Source of the DNA: Rhodospirillaceae bacterium bin65
GTDB lineage: Bacteria > Pseudomonadota > Alphaproteobacteria > Bin65
Direction of reading: 5' to 3'
Assembly: GCA_002238725.1 (NCBI GenBank)
Contig: MPMX01000003.1
Span: 1-64,000 of the forward strand
Length of the DNA stretch: 64,000 nt
Shown here: in pieces, positions 1,421-20,316 of the stretch
Layout: each line of letters starts with the position of its first letter
Numbering within the stretch: the first letter of the stretch is position 1
Notes under the pieces: model-generated
The model's database searches: none
What the model was told of the DNA's origin: nothing
What the model saw: only the letters and a program-made list of their open reading frames with translations
Made by a program: the position numbers and the translations under genes

Positions 1421-2899
1421 TCATCTCGCCAACACTGACGACCAGTGTGACGGGGCAGAAACCAATGAATCCGCTCCTGCCTGGTCCGCCCATCCCCTGA
1501 ATTTTGTGCATGAGCACTCCGTCCGCTGCCTTTGCGGCAAATCCGTGACATCCAAAAGAGGGGCGACAAAATTCATCTGCAATCGCTCGAAAGGAGGATC
1601 GAATCTCCCTGTCAGCCATCCTATCGCGTATCCCGCAAGCATCGATCCCACAGCTGTCGTCAGATATCCAACCGTATTTATCTGACGCTCTCGCAGCCAA
1701 TACGGATCTGGATCGTCACCCCGACTCCGCGCTTCCGCCGCCGCCGTCGAGCGGGCTGCTCGTTCCTCGTCGGACATTAGCTCCTGTGCTACCCGCCTAG
1801 AATCAATCATATTTCTGCAAAGCACGCATGGATCTGCCGCCAGAAGGCGCACAAATTGCGCAACCTGCCCTGAAATTACCCCATCCTCTCCTTCGAGCAC
1901 AACACCGCAATCCATTGCCGGCACTAGATATCGGAAGGCTAGATCGCTAAGCGCTAGTCGGCTGTGTTGCCTATCCGTACAGCCTAGGGCAATGTCAGAA
2001 GGCACAACGGCGTCGACCACTTCAGGTTGAGGAAGTCGTCCTTGCAACGCCACCACTTCAATTGACGGATCGATTTGGTGCACCAACTCCCGCGCAACTA
2101 CTACCTTTGGTGTCTTTCGTTCGGAATGGATAGGAATACTTCCGTGAATCCTGTCTAAATTCGATTGCTCGACCACATCCGGATCGACAAGTACTAGGCG
2201 ACCAACGCCAGCCCTCGCCAAAACCTCGACGGCAGCAGATCCGGTACCACCTGTACCAATAACTGCAACACAAGAGTCTCGAAGCCTAGACAGCGCTTCC
2301 TCTCCGAACGCACTAACAAATCTGGCAACACGCTCTACCTCGAAATTTGATTGTTGCTTGGATTGTCTCTTGGGCCAATTTCCTACAAAATTGCCTTCTG
2401 CCAGTGTACGGTCAAGTACTAACCAACTTCCGTTCCAGAATACGCGCCCTGAAACAAGTAGCTGATGGTCGACAACAGAGAAAATTAGACTGACATAGGG
2501 GCGATTTGGTGCAAAGTCGGCAAAGTACCGCGAGTAATAGTAATCCATGTCATCATCTATTGGACTTGGTCGTGGCGCACAGTTCTCCGGATGCGAGTGA
2601 ATAACACCAACGGACAAGGCATGATTTTCCGCAGATAATGCTACCCGTAGTGTATATTTTTCGTCAAAAGCCACATGGTCGACATTCTCGTCTAGGTCAC
2701 CAACTTCTGGCGAATCTATACCCGCAAGAGTAATGATAAGGGTGTGCCCGATGTCTCTCCACCCAAATCGAGCAAACGTCGCCCATTCCTTGTCAGGGTA
2801 TCGTCTAAATACCAGTTCCTTTAGCGCTTGGAATTCAGGTTCGGCGGCGCGAAGAACGAACTTCTTGCAATCGGACGGTTGAAGAGTCGGTATTGTCAT
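1421..2899 (-). CDS. JAB (MPN) peptidase-E1 (ThiF/UBA) activating enzyme fusion
   Basis: About 492 residues joining two activities of a ubiquitin-like pathway. The N-terminal third is a JAB/JAMM metalloprotease domain with HSHPENCAPRPSPIDDD (zinc-binding HxH, then SxxD). The rest is an E1-like adenylating domain: nucleotide loop IGTGGTGSAAVEVL, acidic VDPDVVEQSNLDR, RKTPK lysine and GCTDRQHSR. Cysteine pairs PCVLC and ECSC probably bind zinc. In such systems JAB trims the ubiquitin-like protein and E1 activates its C-terminal glycine. The ATG at 2899 overlaps the upstream E2-like stop as ATGA; an alternative ATG lies at 2914. GC is clearly lower than in the chromosome. No CD-NTase is nearby, so it is not CBASS. 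Confidence 0.85.
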   Translation of the reverse strand: MTIPTLQPSDCKKFVLRAAEPEFQALKELVFRRYPDKEWATFARFGWRDIGHTLIITLAGIDSPEVGDLDENVDHVAFDEKYTLRVALSAENHALSVGVIHSHPENCAPRPSPIDDDMDYYYSRYFADFAPNRPYVSLIFSVVDHQLLVSGRVFWNGSWLVLDRTLAEGNFVGNWPKRQSKQQSNFEVERVARFVSAFGEEALSRLRDSCVAVIGTGGTGSAAVEVLARAGVGRLVLVDPDVVEQSNLDRIHGSIPIHSERKTPKVVVARELVHQIDPSIEVVALQGRLPQPEVVDAVVPSDIALGCTDRQHSRLALSDLAFRYLVPAMDCGVVLEGEDGVISGQVAQFVRLLAADPCVLCRNMIDSRRVAQELMSDEERAARSTAAAEARSRGDDPDPYWLRERQINTVGYLTTAVGSMLAGYAIGWLTGRFDPPFERLQMNFVAPLLDVTDLPQRQRTECSCTKFRGWADQAGADSLVSAPSHWSSVLAR

Positions 2900-3309
2900 A
2901 GGCTGTCCAACCAAGAGATTAGGTGGTCAAAGTAAGTGTGGAATCCATACTGGATTTGGTCCCACGGCGGGCCGCCACCTCCGTTGTGCGGATGATAGCT
3001 AGCCAATTGCCATTGGGAGCCGTTGACTGACCGAAGTCCTTGGCTATTCTGTCCACCCTTGACCCGATCCAAGAACGGTGACCCAACAGGCAAGCCAGCC
3101 AGATCGATTGCGGCCCCAGGGTAACCCGAAGGAACTGGAACGACCACGTCGGTTTTGGACGGCAGCCCATATGGCCTCCCTCCTGTCGCAACATCTCGGT
3201 AGAGAACAAATCCTTGATTGCCCTCTATGATCAGTTCGGCGCGTTGACCGCCTTCCGAGAGGATGGAAAGTTCTCGCTCAATCCGTTCCGAGTTCACAGC
3301 CACCCTCAA
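2896..3309 (-). CDS. Prokaryotic E2-like protein (family E type), cysteine-free
   Basis: A 137-residue protein between the ubiquitin-like gene and the JAB-E1 gene. The region VPVPSGYPGAAIDLAGLPVG, then QWQLASYHPHN and FHTYFDHLISWL, resembles the Prok-E2_E group of bacterial UBC-fold proteins, recognised from motif memory. The whole protein has no cysteine, so the thioester chemistry of a normal E2 is impossible. It may be a scaffold or may use another residue. The start at 3309 overlaps the upstream gene by 32 bases and the stop overlaps the next start (ATGA), so the three genes are likely translated together. Confidence 0.75.
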   Translation of the reverse strand: MRVAVNSERIERELSILSEGGQRAELIIEGNQGFVLYRDVATGGRPYGLPSKTDVVVPVPSGYPGAAIDLAGLPVGSPFLDRVKGGQNSQGLRSVNGSQWQLASYHPHNGGGGPPWDQIQYGFHTYFDHLISWLDSL

Positions 3310-3639: not shown

Positions 3640-3984
3640 ATGTCAAGAAAAAAGGGCGAGGGTGGCACCCTACCGGAGAATCTGCGGAAATTCCGGGATC
3701 TTCGGGGCCTGACGCAGGCTCAGATGGGCGCACGGTCGGCTATCGGAGCCGCGTCGATTTCCCACTTCGAAACCGGACAGCGCACACCGACGCTGCATAC
3801 GATTGTCAAGCTCGCAGATGCTCTTGATGTCACTGTGGATGCACTGCTGGGTCGCGCGCCCGTCGAGAGCTCCGCGCATGTTGACCCCGTCTTTCTTCAA
3901 GCATCAAAGGCGGATGCGCAAACACTCGAGACGGTCCGACGTGTCGCGGAAGCGATATTGGAAGATGCAAACAAGCGCACCTAG
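3640..3984 (+). CDS. XRE-family helix-turn-helix regulator
   Basis: A 114-residue DNA-binding protein. The HTH covers roughly residues 11-68: ENLRKFRDLRGLTQAQMG, then SISHFETGQRTPTLHTIVKL and ADALDVTVDALLGR, a standard Cro/CI fold. The C-terminal ~40 residues are probably helical (dimerisation). The ATG at 3640 is preferred over the 3636 ATG, which is out of frame; GGAGGA lies 6-7 bases upstream. It is divergent from the ubiquitin-like operon and separated by paired TATAC/GTATA dyads, so it most likely represses that operon and itself. Similar small regulators often accompany defence genes. Confidence 0.85.
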   Translation: MSRKKGEGGTLPENLRKFRDLRGLTQAQMGARSAIGAASISHFETGQRTPTLHTIVKLADALDVTVDALLGRAPVESSAHVDPVFLQASKADAQTLETVRRVAEAILEDANKRT

Positions 3985-4736: not shown

Positions 4737-5411
4737 ATGCAGAAAATGAAACGCTTCGATTATCCAACCTACAATATTGAAGTCTTGTCTATTGATGACG
4801 GTTTTGCTGCTCTATACGCTTGTCCGCCGGGTTTTGTCGAGCATTCATGGTCCTTAACACAAGCTGAGTATTTGCAGGTCTATCTCACGCAAATTGGCTG
4901 CAAAACTATGGTCATAGAAGATCACTATATTGATCGCGTGTTTATGCGTGACAGCGAAATCTATTATGTTCGCAGCCTGCGATCATACCCTAATTTCACA
5001 AAACGCGTACATTTCTTTGACAAACAATTCGACAATACCGAATGGAAGAATATGATACAGCAAGCGGGACACGGCAAGTTACCTGAAATTCAAGATATTC
5101 TACAAGCAAGCTATCTTGGGTTTACCGTCATAAGGCCATTACCAGAATCTCCTGTTGGTAGAACCATACTGCCCGCCCGGTTTCCCCACGCCCCAGCAGA
5201 GGAAGAGTCATATTTTGGAACCATTCGCCGCCATAATGTACATTTAGCCGGCATTTCTTTATTTGTCGACGGCGTGCCCTTCCAAAGTCAGGATCAGGGT
5301 GTAAGTGCATGCGCCACTACTGCACTTTGGAGCGCGTTAGATAGCGTCGCATCCAGAGAAGAAATTACAGTGTCTTCGCCGGCGAGTATCACAGAGTCAG
5401 CCACCCGTTAC
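4737..5411 (+). pseudogene. Predicted papain/C39-like cysteine protease, 3'-truncated by mobile DNA
   Basis: About 225 residues are coherent, beginning at MQKMKRFDYPTYNIEVL. Near residues 185-200, PFQSQDQGVSACATTALW has the Q..D..V..CA..AL pattern of papain-fold cysteine proteases (oxyanion Gln plus nucleophile Cys). The segment holding the catalytic His and Asp should follow but is lost: after about 5411 composition and codon use change and the frame runs on through IS110 antisense DNA to 6548. Low GC marks it as imported cargo. The remaining frame probably makes no active enzyme. The protease family call rests on this one motif. Confidence 0.5.
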
Positions 5412-5876
5412 CCTTGTATGGGGCATTTCCGGTCAATCCCTCGGGTGACACCCTCAGGCCTTCTATTCCCCACCCCTCTCAAAGCCCTACTCGACCTCTT
5501 TCATGGAGGCCGGCTGGATGAGAGAGGAACGAATGATGGGTGCCGAACCGCGCTGCAGTTCAGAATGAGCGTGGGCCGCGATCGGCAGATGTTGGAAGCA
5601 ATGCGTCGGTTGTTGGCCTTCGTTCTGGACTACTTGAATCCGAGGAGGAGCTCTACCGCGGGCGCCTACCGCGCCACACCCTTGTATTCGGTAGGCCGAT
5701 TTTCGGCCTGGACCATGATGCAGTCATTCGCATCGTCGGCTGAGCTCCGAGGCGGCGGGCCCATTCTCTTCAGCGGCACGAAAGCCATGAGTGAACACGG
5801 GTTGCCGCCACCTCGGATCCGTCACGTCCGGGCCCGGAAGTTCGTTCCGAGCCGGGTCGCTACTCCAGTGCGCCGA
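5412..5876. other. Non-coding stretch downstream of the IS110 remnant
   Basis: About 465 bases between the broken protease gene and the stop of the IS110 transposase. No convincing gene is present on either strand. It may be the 3' non-coding part of the IS110 element; some IS110-family (IS1111 group) elements carry their bridge RNA on this side. The left IS end could not be located exactly. Confidence 0.4.
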
Positions 5877-6643
5877 TCATGCCGGCGCCTTGAAGACAAA
5901 GCCCTCGGGGATCTCGCCCAGGGTAACGAACCGCCACAAGGCGATCAGGAGCTTGCGAGCGAGCGCCACAATCATCGTCTTTCGCACGCTGCTGCGGCCA
6001 TCGGCGGTACGTTCGCGATACCAGCGCGCAAGGGCGCTGTCCTTGTGGAAGATCAGGAAGCGCCAGGCGAGCTGGATCATCCCGGCGCGTACACGGCTAT
6101 TACCGGCCCGGGCCAATCCTTTCTCACGGCGTCGCTTGCCGCTCTCGTCTGGCGATCCGGTCAGCCCGCCGTAGCGTGCCAGTGCGCGGCGGTGAGGTAT
6201 GTCACGCGAGAAGATTTCGCCAACAAGCATGTCGGCCGTCTCCAGGCCAAGCCCGTGAATCTGAGACAGCAGTCGGACCATGCTGTGATGTTTGTCGTCC
6301 GGGTCAGCTGCCAGGCGTTCCTCGCGGGCGACCTCGATCTCCTTGATCTGCTCGTTGACGTAACGCAGACGCGCCATGTCCCGCCGCAGTTCAGCCAATG
6401 TGTTGGGCGGGATCGGCGCCCCTTCCGGCGTGCGGAGGTCCTTCAGGCGGTCTGCCGCGCGGCGCAGCTTCGGATTGAAATCCCGGATGCCAAGGCGCAC
6501 AAACGTCGACTTCAACCGGTTGACGATCCGTGTACGTTCCGAGACTAGGTTGTCCCGTTCTCGGTGCGCGCGGCGGGCGTCTTCCTCCTCAAGGGATGGG
6601 ACCGGAACCATCCGGCAGTGTTCTATCTCGCCGCGAAGCCAGC
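5877..6643 (-). pseudogene. IS110-family transposase, N-terminal part missing
   Basis: C-terminal ~255 residues of an IS110 (DEDD plus Transposase_20) recombinase. WLRGEIEHCRMVPVPSLEEE and VNRLKSTFVRLGIRDF come from the linker region; LSQIHGLGLETADMLVGEI and RYGGLTGSPDESGKRRRE belong to the serine-containing C-terminal domain. The N-terminal DEDD domain is absent: homology stops at 6643, exactly where the TGTTGTC end of the next element begins. The frame continues to 6881, but those residues are read through the neighbouring transposon and are not IS110. The element is therefore dead. Confidence 0.8.
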
Positions 6644-6769
6644 TGTTGTCTCGCAGATTATTTGACCATGGGTTTCCCGGATTATTTCGCGCGACAGGTG
6701 AGAGGGCGCAGGCTTTTGGCGGGGACCGGGGGGTGATCCGCTCGGAATAATCGAGGTTTTGGGGTGGGT

Positions 6770-6806
6770 GCCCCCCGAAGAGCTTGCAAGAAGCGCTCCG
6801 GGGGGC
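6770..6806 (+). other. Strong GC hairpin upstream of the first transposon gene
   Basis: GCCCCCCG (6770-6777) pairs with CGGGGGGC (6799-6806), and inner GAGC (6780-6783) pairs with GCTC (6795-6798) around an 11-base loop. It ends 38 bases before the first transposon gene. It could attenuate read-in transcription or block translation from outside promoters. Confidence 0.5.
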
Positions 6807-6843
6807 TTGTCTCGGTGACGGTGAAATCTCCAGAGACGCCCCA

Positions 6844-7458
6844 ATGTCGCACAAGCTGTTCCGCCATTCCATGCTTTCCAACGCCCGGGTCTGGGCTTTC
6901 CTGAAGCGGGTCGACGCGGCGGAGGCGGAGGCCTCCCGTGCAGCGGGCTGTCCGCGCTGCGGCGGAGACCTTCACAGCGCGAGCTACCTGCGCAAGCCGT
7001 ACGGCCTGTCGGCCGATCTTCGTGACGATGCCCGGCGCTTCAGCTTGTGCTGTTCGGTGTGCCGGCGCCGCGTGAAGCCGCCATCGGTGCGTTTCTTCGG
7101 GCGCCGGTTCTATGTCGGGGGGTTGTTCCTCCTGGTGAGCGCGCTGGCTCTGGCCGGCGGCGTGCGCCTGCAGACGATCGCACGCAGGTGTGGGGTTCCG
7201 GCCTCGACCCTGAAGCGCTGGCGGCGCTGGTGGCGGGAGACCTTCCCGCTGACCCGGGAGTGGCGGGCGAAGCGGGGCGCGCTGGCGCCGCCGCCCGGGG
7301 TGGCGCCGCTGCGCTGGCTGCTGCGTTCCATCCGGGGCCTCGGCTTCCGCTCGCGGCTGTTGCGCAGCCTGGTCTGGCTGATGCCGTGGACGGGTTTTTG
7401 CGCACTCGGCGCCGGGTCGGCGGCGCCCGCAGAGAGCGTTTCTGTCATGAACGGATAG
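6844..7458 (+). CDS. Zinc-ribbon/HTH transposon protein (DUF6431-like)
   Basis: About 204 residues. A zinc ribbon is visible as CPRCGG near residue 38 and CCSVCRRRVK near residue 70, followed by RFFGRRFYVGG. A likely helix-turn-helix follows at residues 100-130 (LQTIARRCGVPASTLKRWRRWW). The layout matches proteins I recall as DUF6431, found beside rve transposases. It probably binds transposon DNA. It is the first gene of the element, 49 bases before the transposase gene. The start at 6844 is chosen because the Met is followed by coherent sequence; a TTG at 6784 falls inside the GC hairpin. Confidence 0.6.
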   Translation: MSHKLFRHSMLSNARVWAFLKRVDAAEAEASRAAGCPRCGGDLHSASYLRKPYGLSADLRDDARRFSLCCSVCRRRVKPPSVRFFGRRFYVGGLFLLVSALALAGGVRLQTIARRCGVPASTLKRWRRWWRETFPLTREWRAKRGALAPPPGVAPLRWLLRSIRGLGFRSRLLRSLVWLMPWTGFCALGAGSAAPAESVSVMNG

Positions 7459-7507: not shown

Positions 7508-8989
7508 ATGGGCAGCAACGACGGAGGCGGCGGCCGCGACCGGTGGGCGCGGCTGCGCTTTGCGGTGATCGGGCCGCTTCTGGCCTCGCCGCCGCCGGCG
7601 GGGCAGCTGCGGGCCGAGCTCGAACGGCTTGCGGAACGCGACTGGGAGCACCCGTCGGGCAGGGGCCCGGTGCGCTTCGCGGCCTCCACGATCGAACGCT
7701 GGTACTACCAGGCGCGGGCGGCCGAGCACGATCCGGTCAAGGCGCTGCAGCGGCGGCCGCGCGCCGATGCCGGGCGCGAGCGGGCGATGTCGCCGGCGCT
7801 GATCGAGGCGCTGCGCGAGCAGTACCGGGCGCATCCGTCGTGGTCGGCGCAGCTGCACTACGAGAACCTCGGCGCGCTGGTCGAGGCCGACCCCGCGCTC
7901 GGCCCGATGCCGTCCTACGCGACGCTGACCCGGGCGATGCGCAGCCGCGGCCTGGTTCGCAAGCGCCGGCGGCGGCGCTTCGAGCCCGAGCCCGCGCCGG
8001 TCGCGCAGACGCGCGAGGTGCTGAGCTACGAGGTGGAGCGCAGCCACGGCCTCTGGCACTGCGACTTCCACCACGGCAAGCGCCGCGTGCTGACCGCATC
8101 GGGCGAGTGGAAGACGCCGATCCTGCTCGGCTTCCTCGACGACCGCTCGCGGCTCGGCTGCCACCTGCAGTGGTATCTGGCGGAGACCGCCGAGGTCTTC
8201 GTCCACGGGCTCTGCCAGGCCTTCATGAAGCGCGGCCTGCCGCGCGCCCTGATGAGCGACAACGGCTCGCCGATGATCGCCGGCGAGGTCGAGGAGGGGC
8301 TGCACCGGCTCGGCATCGTCCACTCCACGACCCTCGCGGGAGCCCCTTATCAGAACGGCAAGATGGAGGTCCTGTGGGCCTCGGTCGAGGGCCGCCTGAT
8401 GGCCATGCTCGAAGGGGTCGAGGCGCTCACCCTGAAGACGCTCAACGATGCCACCGTCGCCTGGGTCGAGCAGGACTACCACCGCCGCGTTCACCGCGAG
8501 CTCGGCACGACGCCGATGAGGCGACTGCTCGACAGCGTCGATGCGTCGAGGCCCTGCCCCGGCGTCGACACGCTCAGGGCGGCGTTCCGGATCACCCGGA
8601 AGCGCACGCTGAGGCGCTCGGACGGAACCGTCTCGGTCGAGGGCGTGCGCTACCAGATGCCCGCGCCATGGCGCCACCTGAACAAGCTCTGGATCCGCTA
8701 CGCGCGCTGGGACCTGTCCAGCGTCGATCTGGTCGACAGCCCGGATGGCGAGCGGCTGTGCACCCTCTATCCGCTGGACAAGCGCGGCAATGCCGGCGGC
8801 GTGCGCCGCCCCACCGCCCCCGGCGATGACGATGGCGGCGGCAGCCCCGGCGCCGCCGGGGGCGAAGCCGCGCCGCTGCTCAGGCGCATCCTCGACAACC
8901 AGGCCGCCACGGGCCTGCCGCCGGCCTGGCTGCCCCATGCCGCAAGCCCCCGTCCCGACAAGGACGACCAACAGGGAGACCCCTCATGA
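7508..8989 (+). CDS. DDE transposase with integrase (rve) core, TniA/IS481-like
   Basis: 493 residues. An N-terminal winged/HTH region is followed by an RNase H-like integrase core. The catalytic triad is visible: Asp in LWHCDFHH, Asp in LMSDNGSP and Glu in YQNGKMEVLW. A beta-barrel region (SVEGVRYQMPAPW) resembles the Mu/TnsB C-terminal domain. The last ~60 residues are Pro/Ala-rich and end with LLRRILDNQAATGLPPAWLP, perhaps the contact for the ATPase encoded next. AGGGAGGGA precedes the ATG. The stop overlaps the ATPase start as ATGA. It catalyses strand transfer of the element; all key residues are present. Confidence 0.85.
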   Translation: MGSNDGGGGRDRWARLRFAVIGPLLASPPPAGQLRAELERLAERDWEHPSGRGPVRFAASTIERWYYQARAAEHDPVKALQRRPRADAGRERAMSPALIEALREQYRAHPSWSAQLHYENLGALVEADPALGPMPSYATLTRAMRSRGLVRKRRRRRFEPEPAPVAQTREVLSYEVERSHGLWHCDFHHGKRRVLTASGEWKTPILLGFLDDRSRLGCHLQWYLAETAEVFVHGLCQAFMKRGLPRALMSDNGSPMIAGEVEEGLHRLGIVHSTTLAGAPYQNGKMEVLWASVEGRLMAMLEGVEALTLKTLNDATVAWVEQDYHRRVHRELGTTPMRRLLDSVDASRPCPGVDTLRAAFRITRKRTLRRSDGTVSVEGVRYQMPAPWRHLNKLWIRYARWDLSSVDLVDSPDGERLCTLYPLDKRGNAGGVRRPTAPGDDDGGGSPGAAGGEAAPLLRRILDNQAATGLPPAWLPHAASPRPDKDDQQGDPS

Positions 8990-9819
8990 ACCGCGAACTG
9001 CTCACCTTCTTCGGCCTCAAGTGGAACCCGTTCAGCAGCGAGCTGCCGTTCGACGGCCTCATGGCGACCCCCGCCGTCGACAGCTTCTGCCACCGGGTGG
9101 AGCACCACCTGGTGCGCCAGGGCGGCTTCGCGCTGATCACCGGCGAGCCCGGCACCGGAAAGAGCGTCGCGCTTCGCCTGCTCGCCGACCGGCTCGCCCG
9201 CACCGACGGATTGCGCGTCGCCGCTCTCTCCCACCCGTCCTCGCGTCTCGGCGACTTCTACCGCGAGATGGGCGAGCTGTTCGGCATCACCCTGGTCACC
9301 GGCAGCCGATGGACCAGCTTCAAGGGGCTGCGCGAGCGCTGGCTCGCCCATCTCGACGACACCCGCTTGCGGCCCCTGCTGCTGATCGACGAAGCCCAGG
9401 AGCTGCACGTCACGGTCCTGTCCGAGATCCGCCTGCTCGGCTCCATCGACTTCGACTCGCGCGCCATCCTCTCGGTCGTCCTGGCCGGCGACAACCGCCT
9501 GCTCGACAGGCTCGGCCAACCCGACCTGCGGCCGCTCGCCTCGCGCATCCGACAGCGCCTCGTCATGGCGCCCGCCGAAACCGAAGAACTCGCCCGGTTG
9601 CTCGACCACCTGCTGCAGGAGGCCGGCAACCCGGCGCTGATGACCGCCGACCTCAAGGACGCGCTCTGCGCCCATGCCTCGGGCAACCCCAGGACGCTCA
9701 CCGTCATGGCCGATACCCTGCTCGCCATCGCCGCAGAACAGGATCGCGAGGTGCTCGACGAGAAGCTCTTCCTGGAGACCTGGGGCGAGGCCCCGCCGCG
9801 CAGGGCAAATCGGCGATGA
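8986..9819 (+). CDS. AAA+ transposition regulator (TniB/ExeA-like ATPase)
   Basis: 277 residues starting MNRELLTFFGLKWNPFSSEL, the typical opening of ExeA/TniB-type ATPases. Walker A is GEPGTGKS (residues ~49-56), Walker B is LLLIDEAQE, and sensor/arginine-finger residues occur in LASRIRQRL. In Mu, Tn7 and Tn5053 such ATPases (MuB, TnsC, TniB) select target DNA and activate the transposase. The gene overlaps the transposase by ATGA and the next gene by ATGA, showing tight co-translation. A general secretion ATPase role (ExeA) is unlikely in this context. Confidence 0.85.
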   Translation: MNRELLTFFGLKWNPFSSELPFDGLMATPAVDSFCHRVEHHLVRQGGFALITGEPGTGKSVALRLLADRLARTDGLRVAALSHPSSRLGDFYREMGELFGITLVTGSRWTSFKGLRERWLAHLDDTRLRPLLLIDEAQELHVTVLSEIRLLGSIDFDSRAILSVVLAGDNRLLDRLGQPDLRPLASRIRQRLVMAPAETEELARLLDHLLQEAGNPALMTADLKDALCAHASGNPRTLTVMADTLLAIAAEQDREVLDEKLFLETWGEAPPRRANRR

Positions 9820-19206: not shown

Positions 19207-20316
19207 ATGACGACTCCGGACACAGGCAGCATCGTCACCTCCCCGCCCGCAGAGGCGGCCGGCCGCGCGCCGGTGCAGGCGCTGAACGACCGGGCGCGCG
19301 ATATTCTGCGCCACATCGTCGAGACTTATGTCAGTTCCGGCGAGGCCGTCGGCTCGCGCACCCTGTCGCGCATTGACGATGTCAGCCTGTCGCCGGCGAC
19401 GATCCGCAACGTCATGGCAGACCTCGAGGATGCCGGCCTGCTCTATGCCCGCCACACTTCGGCCGGCCGCCTGCCGACCGATGCCGGCCTGCGCATGTTC
19501 GTCGACGGCTTGCTCGAGGTCGGCCGCCTCAGCGAGGACGAGCGCGAGCGGATCGAGGCGCAATGCGCCGCCAACGGCCGCAGTGTGGAACAGGTCCTGA
19601 CCCAGGCCAGCCAGTCGCTGGCCGGCCTGTCACATCAGGTCGGGCTCGTGGTGGCGCCGCAATCGGAAAGCGCGCTGCAGCATATCGAATTCGTCGGCCT
19701 CGGTCCGGGCCGCGCCCTGGTGGTCATGGTGTTGAAGAACGGCGTTATCGAGAACCGGATTATCGACGTGCCGGTCGGCATGCCGACCTCCGCGCTGGTC
19801 GAGGCGTCGAACTATCTGACCGCCCGGCTGATCGGCAAGACGCTGGCCGAGGCGCAGCGGGCAGTGACCTCGGAGCTGGCGCGCGACCGGGCCCAGCTCG
19901 ACGCCCTCACCGGCGATCTCGTCGAGCGCGGTCTGGCGGTCTGGTCGGGTACGGAAGGCGCGGCGGCGGAACGGGGTGCGCTAATTGTCCGCGGCCAGTC
20001 CAAGCTTCTTGAAGATGTCAACGCGATTGACGATCTGGAGCGGGTACGGCGGCTGTTCTCGGCGCTGGAGCGGAAGGAAACCCTGTTGCGATTGCTCGAT
20101 CTGTCGAGCGACGCCCAGGGAATCCGGATCTTCATCGGTGCGGAGAACGAGCTGTTCCGCAACGCCGGTTGCTCTCTGATCATTTCGCCCTACAAGAATA
20201 CGGACGAAATGGTTGTCGGCGCGATCGGCGTGATCGGACCGACACGCATGAATTATGCCCGGATCATTCCGATGGTGGACTATACGGCGACCGTCGTCGG
20301 CCGGCTGATCGGCTGA
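19207..20316 (+). CDS. hrcA: Heat-inducible transcription repressor HrcA
   Basis: 369 residues. HrcA represses chaperone genes by binding CIRCE, its activity tuned by GroEL. The N-terminal winged helix shows DILRHIVETYVSSGEAVGSR and SPATIRNVMADLEDAGLLY; the C-terminal GAF-like domain ends in ISPYKNTDEMVVGAIGVIGP and MNYARIIPMVDYTA, both family hallmarks. It precedes grpE by 43 bases. No CIRCE element is visible in this window, so its targets (groESL, usually) lie elsewhere. Confidence 0.95.
   Translation: MTTPDTGSIVTSPPAEAAGRAPVQALNDRARDILRHIVETYVSSGEAVGSRTLSRIDDVSLSPATIRNVMADLEDAGLLYARHTSAGRLPTDAGLRMFVDGLLEVGRLSEDERERIEAQCAANGRSVEQVLTQASQSLAGLSHQVGLVVAPQSESALQHIEFVGLGPGRALVVMVLKNGVIENRIIDVPVGMPTSALVEASNYLTARLIGKTLAEAQRAVTSELARDRAQLDALTGDLVERGLAVWSGTEGAAAERGALIVRGQSKLLEDVNAIDDLERVRRLFSALERKETLLRLLDLSSDAQGIRIFIGAENELFRNAGCSLIISPYKNTDEMVVGAIGVIGPTRMNYARIIPMVDYTATVVGRLIG

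Follow-up and report, generated by a model that had tools for sequence, protein, structure and literature searches.

A three-gene Ubl, E2-like and JAB-E1 operon

The window, a 64,000-nucleotide stretch of Rhodospirillaceae bacterium bin65, carries a minus-strand operon of three overlapping genes in the order Ubl, E2-like protein and JAB peptidase fused to an E1 domain (Table 1), the adjoining set that defines Type 6e, or Bub, operons. The Ubl ends in FLVTRKTVEGG, with CELGTD after the GG, and the tails of all seven close relatives follow the pattern FLVTRxxVxGG plus 3-11 variable residues. In the JAB-E1 protein, which matches BubCD in the PDB (3e-13), the JAB residues are intact (E38 in 19/20; H101, H103, S112 and D115 in 20/20), as are the E1 adenylation residues R250, K265 and D309 (20/20), and the only family-conserved cysteines of the E1 are that of the CTD motif and four of zinc type (CxxC...CxC). 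Typical Bub plasmid loci have a DUF6527-like zinc-finger gene after the E1; inspection of the window ORFs that lie past the E1 revealed no gene recognisable as one.

Table 1. Features of the operon and its surroundings in the window.
Feature	Position	Strand	Basis
JAMM-type (JAB) peptidase with an E1-like ThiF domain in one chain, 492 aa	1421..2899	-	ThiF, 124 bits; Prok-JAB, below threshold at 20 bits
E2-like protein, 133 aa from the likely GTG start at 3297	2896..3297	-	Pfam Prok-E2_E, alignments, start context, model and PDB match
Segment WQLASYHPHNGGGGPPWDQ, with the Ser-x-His candidate active centre	approx. 2956..3015	-	alignment A4
Ubl (Multi_ubiq, PF14452) with one beta-grasp domain, 89 aa	3278..3547	-	Pfam 25.3 bits vs cut-off 24.5
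XRE-family HTH regulator, divergent	3640..3984	+	HTH_3 49.9 bits; near-identical counterpart at same place in L022
Conserved protein, N-terminal part (~230 aa), papain/C39-like QGVSAC motif	4737..5430 (end approximate)	+	L022/L023 alignment, L024 frame

The peptidase-like gene is truncated in the window, with a full-length frame in two related loci (L023 and L024), and an IS110-family transposase gene lies just past it (5877-6881). A phage-type integrase occupies the window edge (3-680), and an rve transposase with an AAA ATPase gene after it is found at 7508-9819; on account of the edge integrase and the rve transposase/AAA ATPase genes, we place the operon in a mobile region.

Reading frame and start of the E2-like gene

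The original prediction had placed a cysteine-free, 137-residue E2-like protein at 2896-3309, with no strand given. Translation of the minus-strand frame from TTG at 3309 to 2896 indeed yields 137 aa with zero Cys, so the frame and the absence of cysteine hold; the TTG start is probably four codons early. The E2s of three related loci (L022, L023 and L024) begin at an ATG, with the sequence M(N/S)R-x-RI-x-REL, which lines up with the GTG codon at window position 3297, and a GAGGG(C/T)GGC leader precedes the E2 start in both the window and L022. Because of this alignment and common leader, GTG 3297 is likely the real start, giving a protein of 133 aa (3297-2896) in which Cys is still absent. 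Residue numbers S104, H106 and W116 follow the TTG start.

A frameshift or sequencing error restoring a cysteine had been named as one outcome that would overturn this reading. Along its full length, the window protein is 66-71% identical to those of three relatives that belong to other phyla; the alignment needs one gap, one residue long, and has no common Cys position. The stop codon of the window gene overlaps the JAB-E1 start as ATGA at 2899. Since the three relatives align end to end and the gene ends in the ATGA overlap, a frameshift or wrong frame concealing a Cys is ruled out in practice, and the Cys-less reading stands. The lack of cysteine in one such protein is, by itself, weak evidence, because the expected chance of zero Cys in 133 aa at the window Cys frequency is about 10%.

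Family membership and fold

The window protein scores 27.2 bits with Pfam Prok-E2_E (PF14462), for which the cut-off is 25; its three close relatives fall short of that cut-off (16.5-21.2). As a single phmmer query it found no PDB match; a seven-member profile (A1) finds Citrobacter BubB in the PDB with an E-value of 1e-27. An AlphaFold model built from four sequences (window and close relatives; pLDDT 65, pTM 0.64, compared with pLDDT 36 for the window sequence alone) has the topology of UBC proteins, in which a helix is followed by a strand meander and then by a helix at the C-terminus. At this pLDDT of 65, the PDB chain that it matches best is the BubB of a BubB-BubCD complex (9eae_C; Foldseek probability 1.00; Z 7.2, with an rmsd of 3.3 across 101 residues), the next row having Z 3.8, and UBC-fold proteins are common among the rows at Z 3-4 (Vps23 UEV, UFC1, Ubc1). 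The Pfam score and the BubB match support the initial description as a UBC-like protein, and the window protein is almost certainly a divergent member of the BubB-type (Prok-E2_E) family.

The window E2 as a single query found no relatives among viral contigs or PLSDB plasmids, scans of viral sequences with other subfamilies turned up nothing but a partial E2 locus (L027), profile A4 run over 384 other genomes of the class found no further member, and no model in NCBIfam, PADLOC or PHROGs names the E2. Three matches of a phylum scan (L009-L011) were not kept. Two of them, L010 and L011, run across a long coding frame located on the opposite strand or on the same DNA; L009 runs across an unrelated frame of 827 aa, and stops interrupt both L009 and L011.

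Absence of a conserved cysteine and invariance of Ser104

To place these residues in the family we aligned 20 E2s, one of them the Citrobacter BubB of the PDB. No Cys column is common to more than 3/20 members, while Ser104 is kept in all 20, and this combination, rather than the composition of any one protein, is the significant point. His106 and Trp116 are each kept in 19/20, as is Pro64, with Tyr63 in 20/20; the candidate site reads Ser-x-His in 19 members and Ser-x-Arg in one (L002), and the conserved Trp follows S-x-H at a distance of 6-12 residues. The window protein itself carries Y63, P64, D69, S104, H106 and W116, that is, the YP...D and S-x-H...W motifs without an active-site Cys. 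Canonical E2s have their Cys about 8 residues before the W of W-S-P; the catalytic Cys for a thioester, which marks a canonical E2, is absent from the window protein, in line with the earlier statement that an E2 thioester cannot form. The serine and histidine put forward there as substitute carriers are both present at the conserved site. The contrast that the original prediction had implied with Cys-containing Prok-E2_E homologues is not supported, as the corresponding position is Cys in none of the 20 sampled members.

The E2-like domain of 'polyUbl/JAB-E1' operons was described by Iyer et al. 2006 (PMC1779556) as lacking a conserved cysteine, like RWD domains, and as probably inactive. Since a Cys position is never common to more than 3/20 members and the absence was published in 2006, the alignment indicates that the missing Cys is a known trait of the BubB-type family and not peculiar to the window gene; the absence is not in itself new.

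The genome of the window holds a second Ubl-E2-JAB-E1 operon (L002; G000 contig C15, around 19667-19948), whose E2 scores under the Pfam cut-off, has the Ser-x-Arg variant and contains one Cys (HNFC) eight residues before that Ser, and whose Ubl is without a C-terminal GG. A same-genus relative carries a different Bub operon in which the Ubl is fused to a WQRWSRH-type E2 (L003; G006 contig C57), and in a Bub operon of Celeribacter plasmid pP73C an IS256 transposase lies between the E2 and JAB-E1 genes (L017, 1157-2428).

A branch in four phyla and its E2-less sister clade

A search with the JAB-E1 pair from the window and a Terrarubrum plasmid led to five more loci. Three of them, in Myxococcota, Planctomycetota and Gemmatimonadota MAGs (L022-L024), have Ubl, E2 and JAB-E1 genes, and the WQLASYHPHNGGGGPPWDQ segment (19 residues) is identical in these and the window operon, four operons from four phyla. 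All three also carry the divergent papain/C39-like protein, with the motif QGVSAC (RGVSAC in L024), which gave no Pfam match in the two tested. In both Bosea loci and on the Terrarubrum plasmid, a Ubl with the FLVTRxxVxGG-plus-tail pattern adjoins JAB-E1 with no E2 between, and two profiles found no E2 gene above noise in either Bosea genome or the Terrarubrum plasmid.

In the E1 tree the seven loci group together in a clade (100/100) well separated from other Bub E1s, within which the E2-less loci make up a clade of their own (100/99). As every other sampled operon has an E2, the simplest reading is a single loss in the Bosea/Terrarubrum clade, the clade root being poorly fixed. The existence of a sister E1 clade with no E2 gene means that a window-type E1 does not strictly need an E2.

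The E2-less Ubl/JAB-E1 pairs (L012 4001-5497, L025 and L026) lie near acyl-CoA dehydrogenase-like, TIM barrel and GntR genes. The Terrarubrum neighbours are SufE, a second ThiF, a CoA transferase, an acyl-CoA dehydrogenase and a TIM barrel protein, and those that Bosea has in common with them are GntR, TIM barrel and acyl-CoA-dehydrogenase-like genes. Such neighbourhoods have the look of clusters for sulfur transfer or biosynthesis, possibly new sulfur-carrier biosynthetic ones.

Mechanism of the E2 step

The most likely reading of these data, held with somewhat better than even confidence, is that the window gene encodes a BubB-type E2 whose action does not involve a thioester, Ser-x-His being its probable active centre; the conserved residues similarly lean towards Ser104 as the carrier of the Ubl, as an oxyester. 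The JAB domain would trim the Ubl precursor after the GG, as its tail suggests, and the E1 domain, with its intact adenylation residues, would adenylate the Ubl C-terminal glycine. The E2-like protein may then dock on JAB-E1, as Citrobacter BubB does on BubCD in PDB 9eae. Ser104, aided by His106, would accept the Ubl in a transient oxyester linkage and hand it on to a target amine, from which the JAB domain could later remove it, so that the E2 step would run without a cysteine thioester. The Bub mechanism paper reportedly argues for such non-Cys (Ser-type) chemistry. Against a Ser-oxyester E2 stand the E2-less sister clade with the same E1 type, the L002 protein, which keeps the Ser and has Arg for the His, and the structural model, which falls to a pLDDT of about 40 at residues 102-132, after the SYH segment, so that the geometry of S104 and H106 is of low confidence.

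The first of these objections also counts in favour of a less probable alternative, which accounts for these data as well. In it the E2-like protein would never carry the Ubl; much like the eukaryotic UEV/RWD pseudo-E2s, it would bind to the E1 and hold the Ubl adenylate and the target in place, or else set the orientation of the Ubl tail. Ser-x-His would then be structural or a general base. UEV domains do appear among the fold matches; a catalytically inactive, RWD-like domain was also what Iyer et al. 2006 (PMC1779556) proposed. A Ser kept in 20/20 members, a His in 19/20 and an identical 19-residue segment over four phyla are unexpected for a pseudo-enzyme, although a binding role could conserve them too.

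Somewhat more speculatively, the window operon may be an uncharacterised branch linking sulfur carriers and conjugation, its cascade thioester-free throughout. The E2 step would be optional here, since one E1/Ubl lineage would work either with a Cys-less Ser-His E2, for conjugation, or with none, for sulfur transfer.

A sulfur-carrier role for the window Ubl itself, as a JAB-matured, E1-activated thiocarboxylate carrier for biosynthesis like QbsE/CysO, with the E2-like protein a non-conjugating accessory, appears unlikely. A GG with a short tail trimmed by a JAMM protein is known from sulfur-carrier systems, and the closest E2-less relatives have the SufE, ThiF and other neighbours listed above for Terrarubrum and Bosea; the E2-bearing clade, however, retains a BubB-fold protein in the operon and has as neighbours a regulator and a peptidase-like gene, with no sulfur or biosynthetic genes. 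Transfer through His106 as an acyl-imidazole, with Ser104 as helper, is very improbable: the His occupies the same site in 19/20 members, yet the Ser is invariant, the L002 operon persists without the His, and we know of no precedent for acyl-His E2 intermediates.

If the Ser-based reading holds, Cys-less E2s would mean that ubiquitin-like transfer need not go through thioesters. The window branch is a compact case, with a single Ubl, a 133-aa E2 and one JAB-E1, near an E2-less sister group; therefore, in vitro reactions with and without the E2 could directly test the contribution of a Cys-less E2. The branch and its E2-less sister look less known than the absence of cysteine, and look to be the parts worth following.

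Comparison with known systems

The closest known system is the Bub pathway, whose BubB E2 has been studied structurally (PDB 9eae, 9eav and 9ea8; Gong et al. 2025 and Ye et al. 2026, as cited in PMC13373217). The study by Ye et al. 2026 (NSMB 33:71-83) reportedly covers 544 Bub operons. Bub operons are a putative immune pathway, with phage protection not yet shown (PMC13373217). The window operon resembles that of Citrobacter (BubA, BubB, BubCD) in its three functions, Ubl, E2-like protein and JAB fused to E1, in the family and fold of the E2, and in the S-x-H-x(n)-W motif, at which Cys is absent in both. It differs in its single-domain Ubl with a GG tail and separate E2 gene, in having ASYHPHNGGGGPP in place of QRWSRH, in its very divergent E1 (a branch of 2.37 changes per site) and in that no DUF6527 gene was recognised beside it. 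The Type 6e polyUbl operons have exactly the gene order of the window, and the portion of Iyer et al. 2006 (PMC1779556) considered here states the absence of the E2 cysteine and gives Ser-x-His no proposed role; most of its examples carry 2-3 Ubl domains, against one here, along with a zinc-finger gene.

Bil (BilABCD) and CBASS Cap2 share the bacterial E1-E2-Ubl/JAB logic, and no match of the window E2 to their E2 domains was found in Pfam, NCBIfam or PADLOC. Those E2 domains carry a catalytic Cys. The sulfur-carrier systems QbsE/QbsD and CysO/Mec+ combine a Ubl that has a tail after its GG with a JAMM protein and an E1, and have no E2-like protein; they resemble the E2-less sister clade, and the window operon differs from them by having one.
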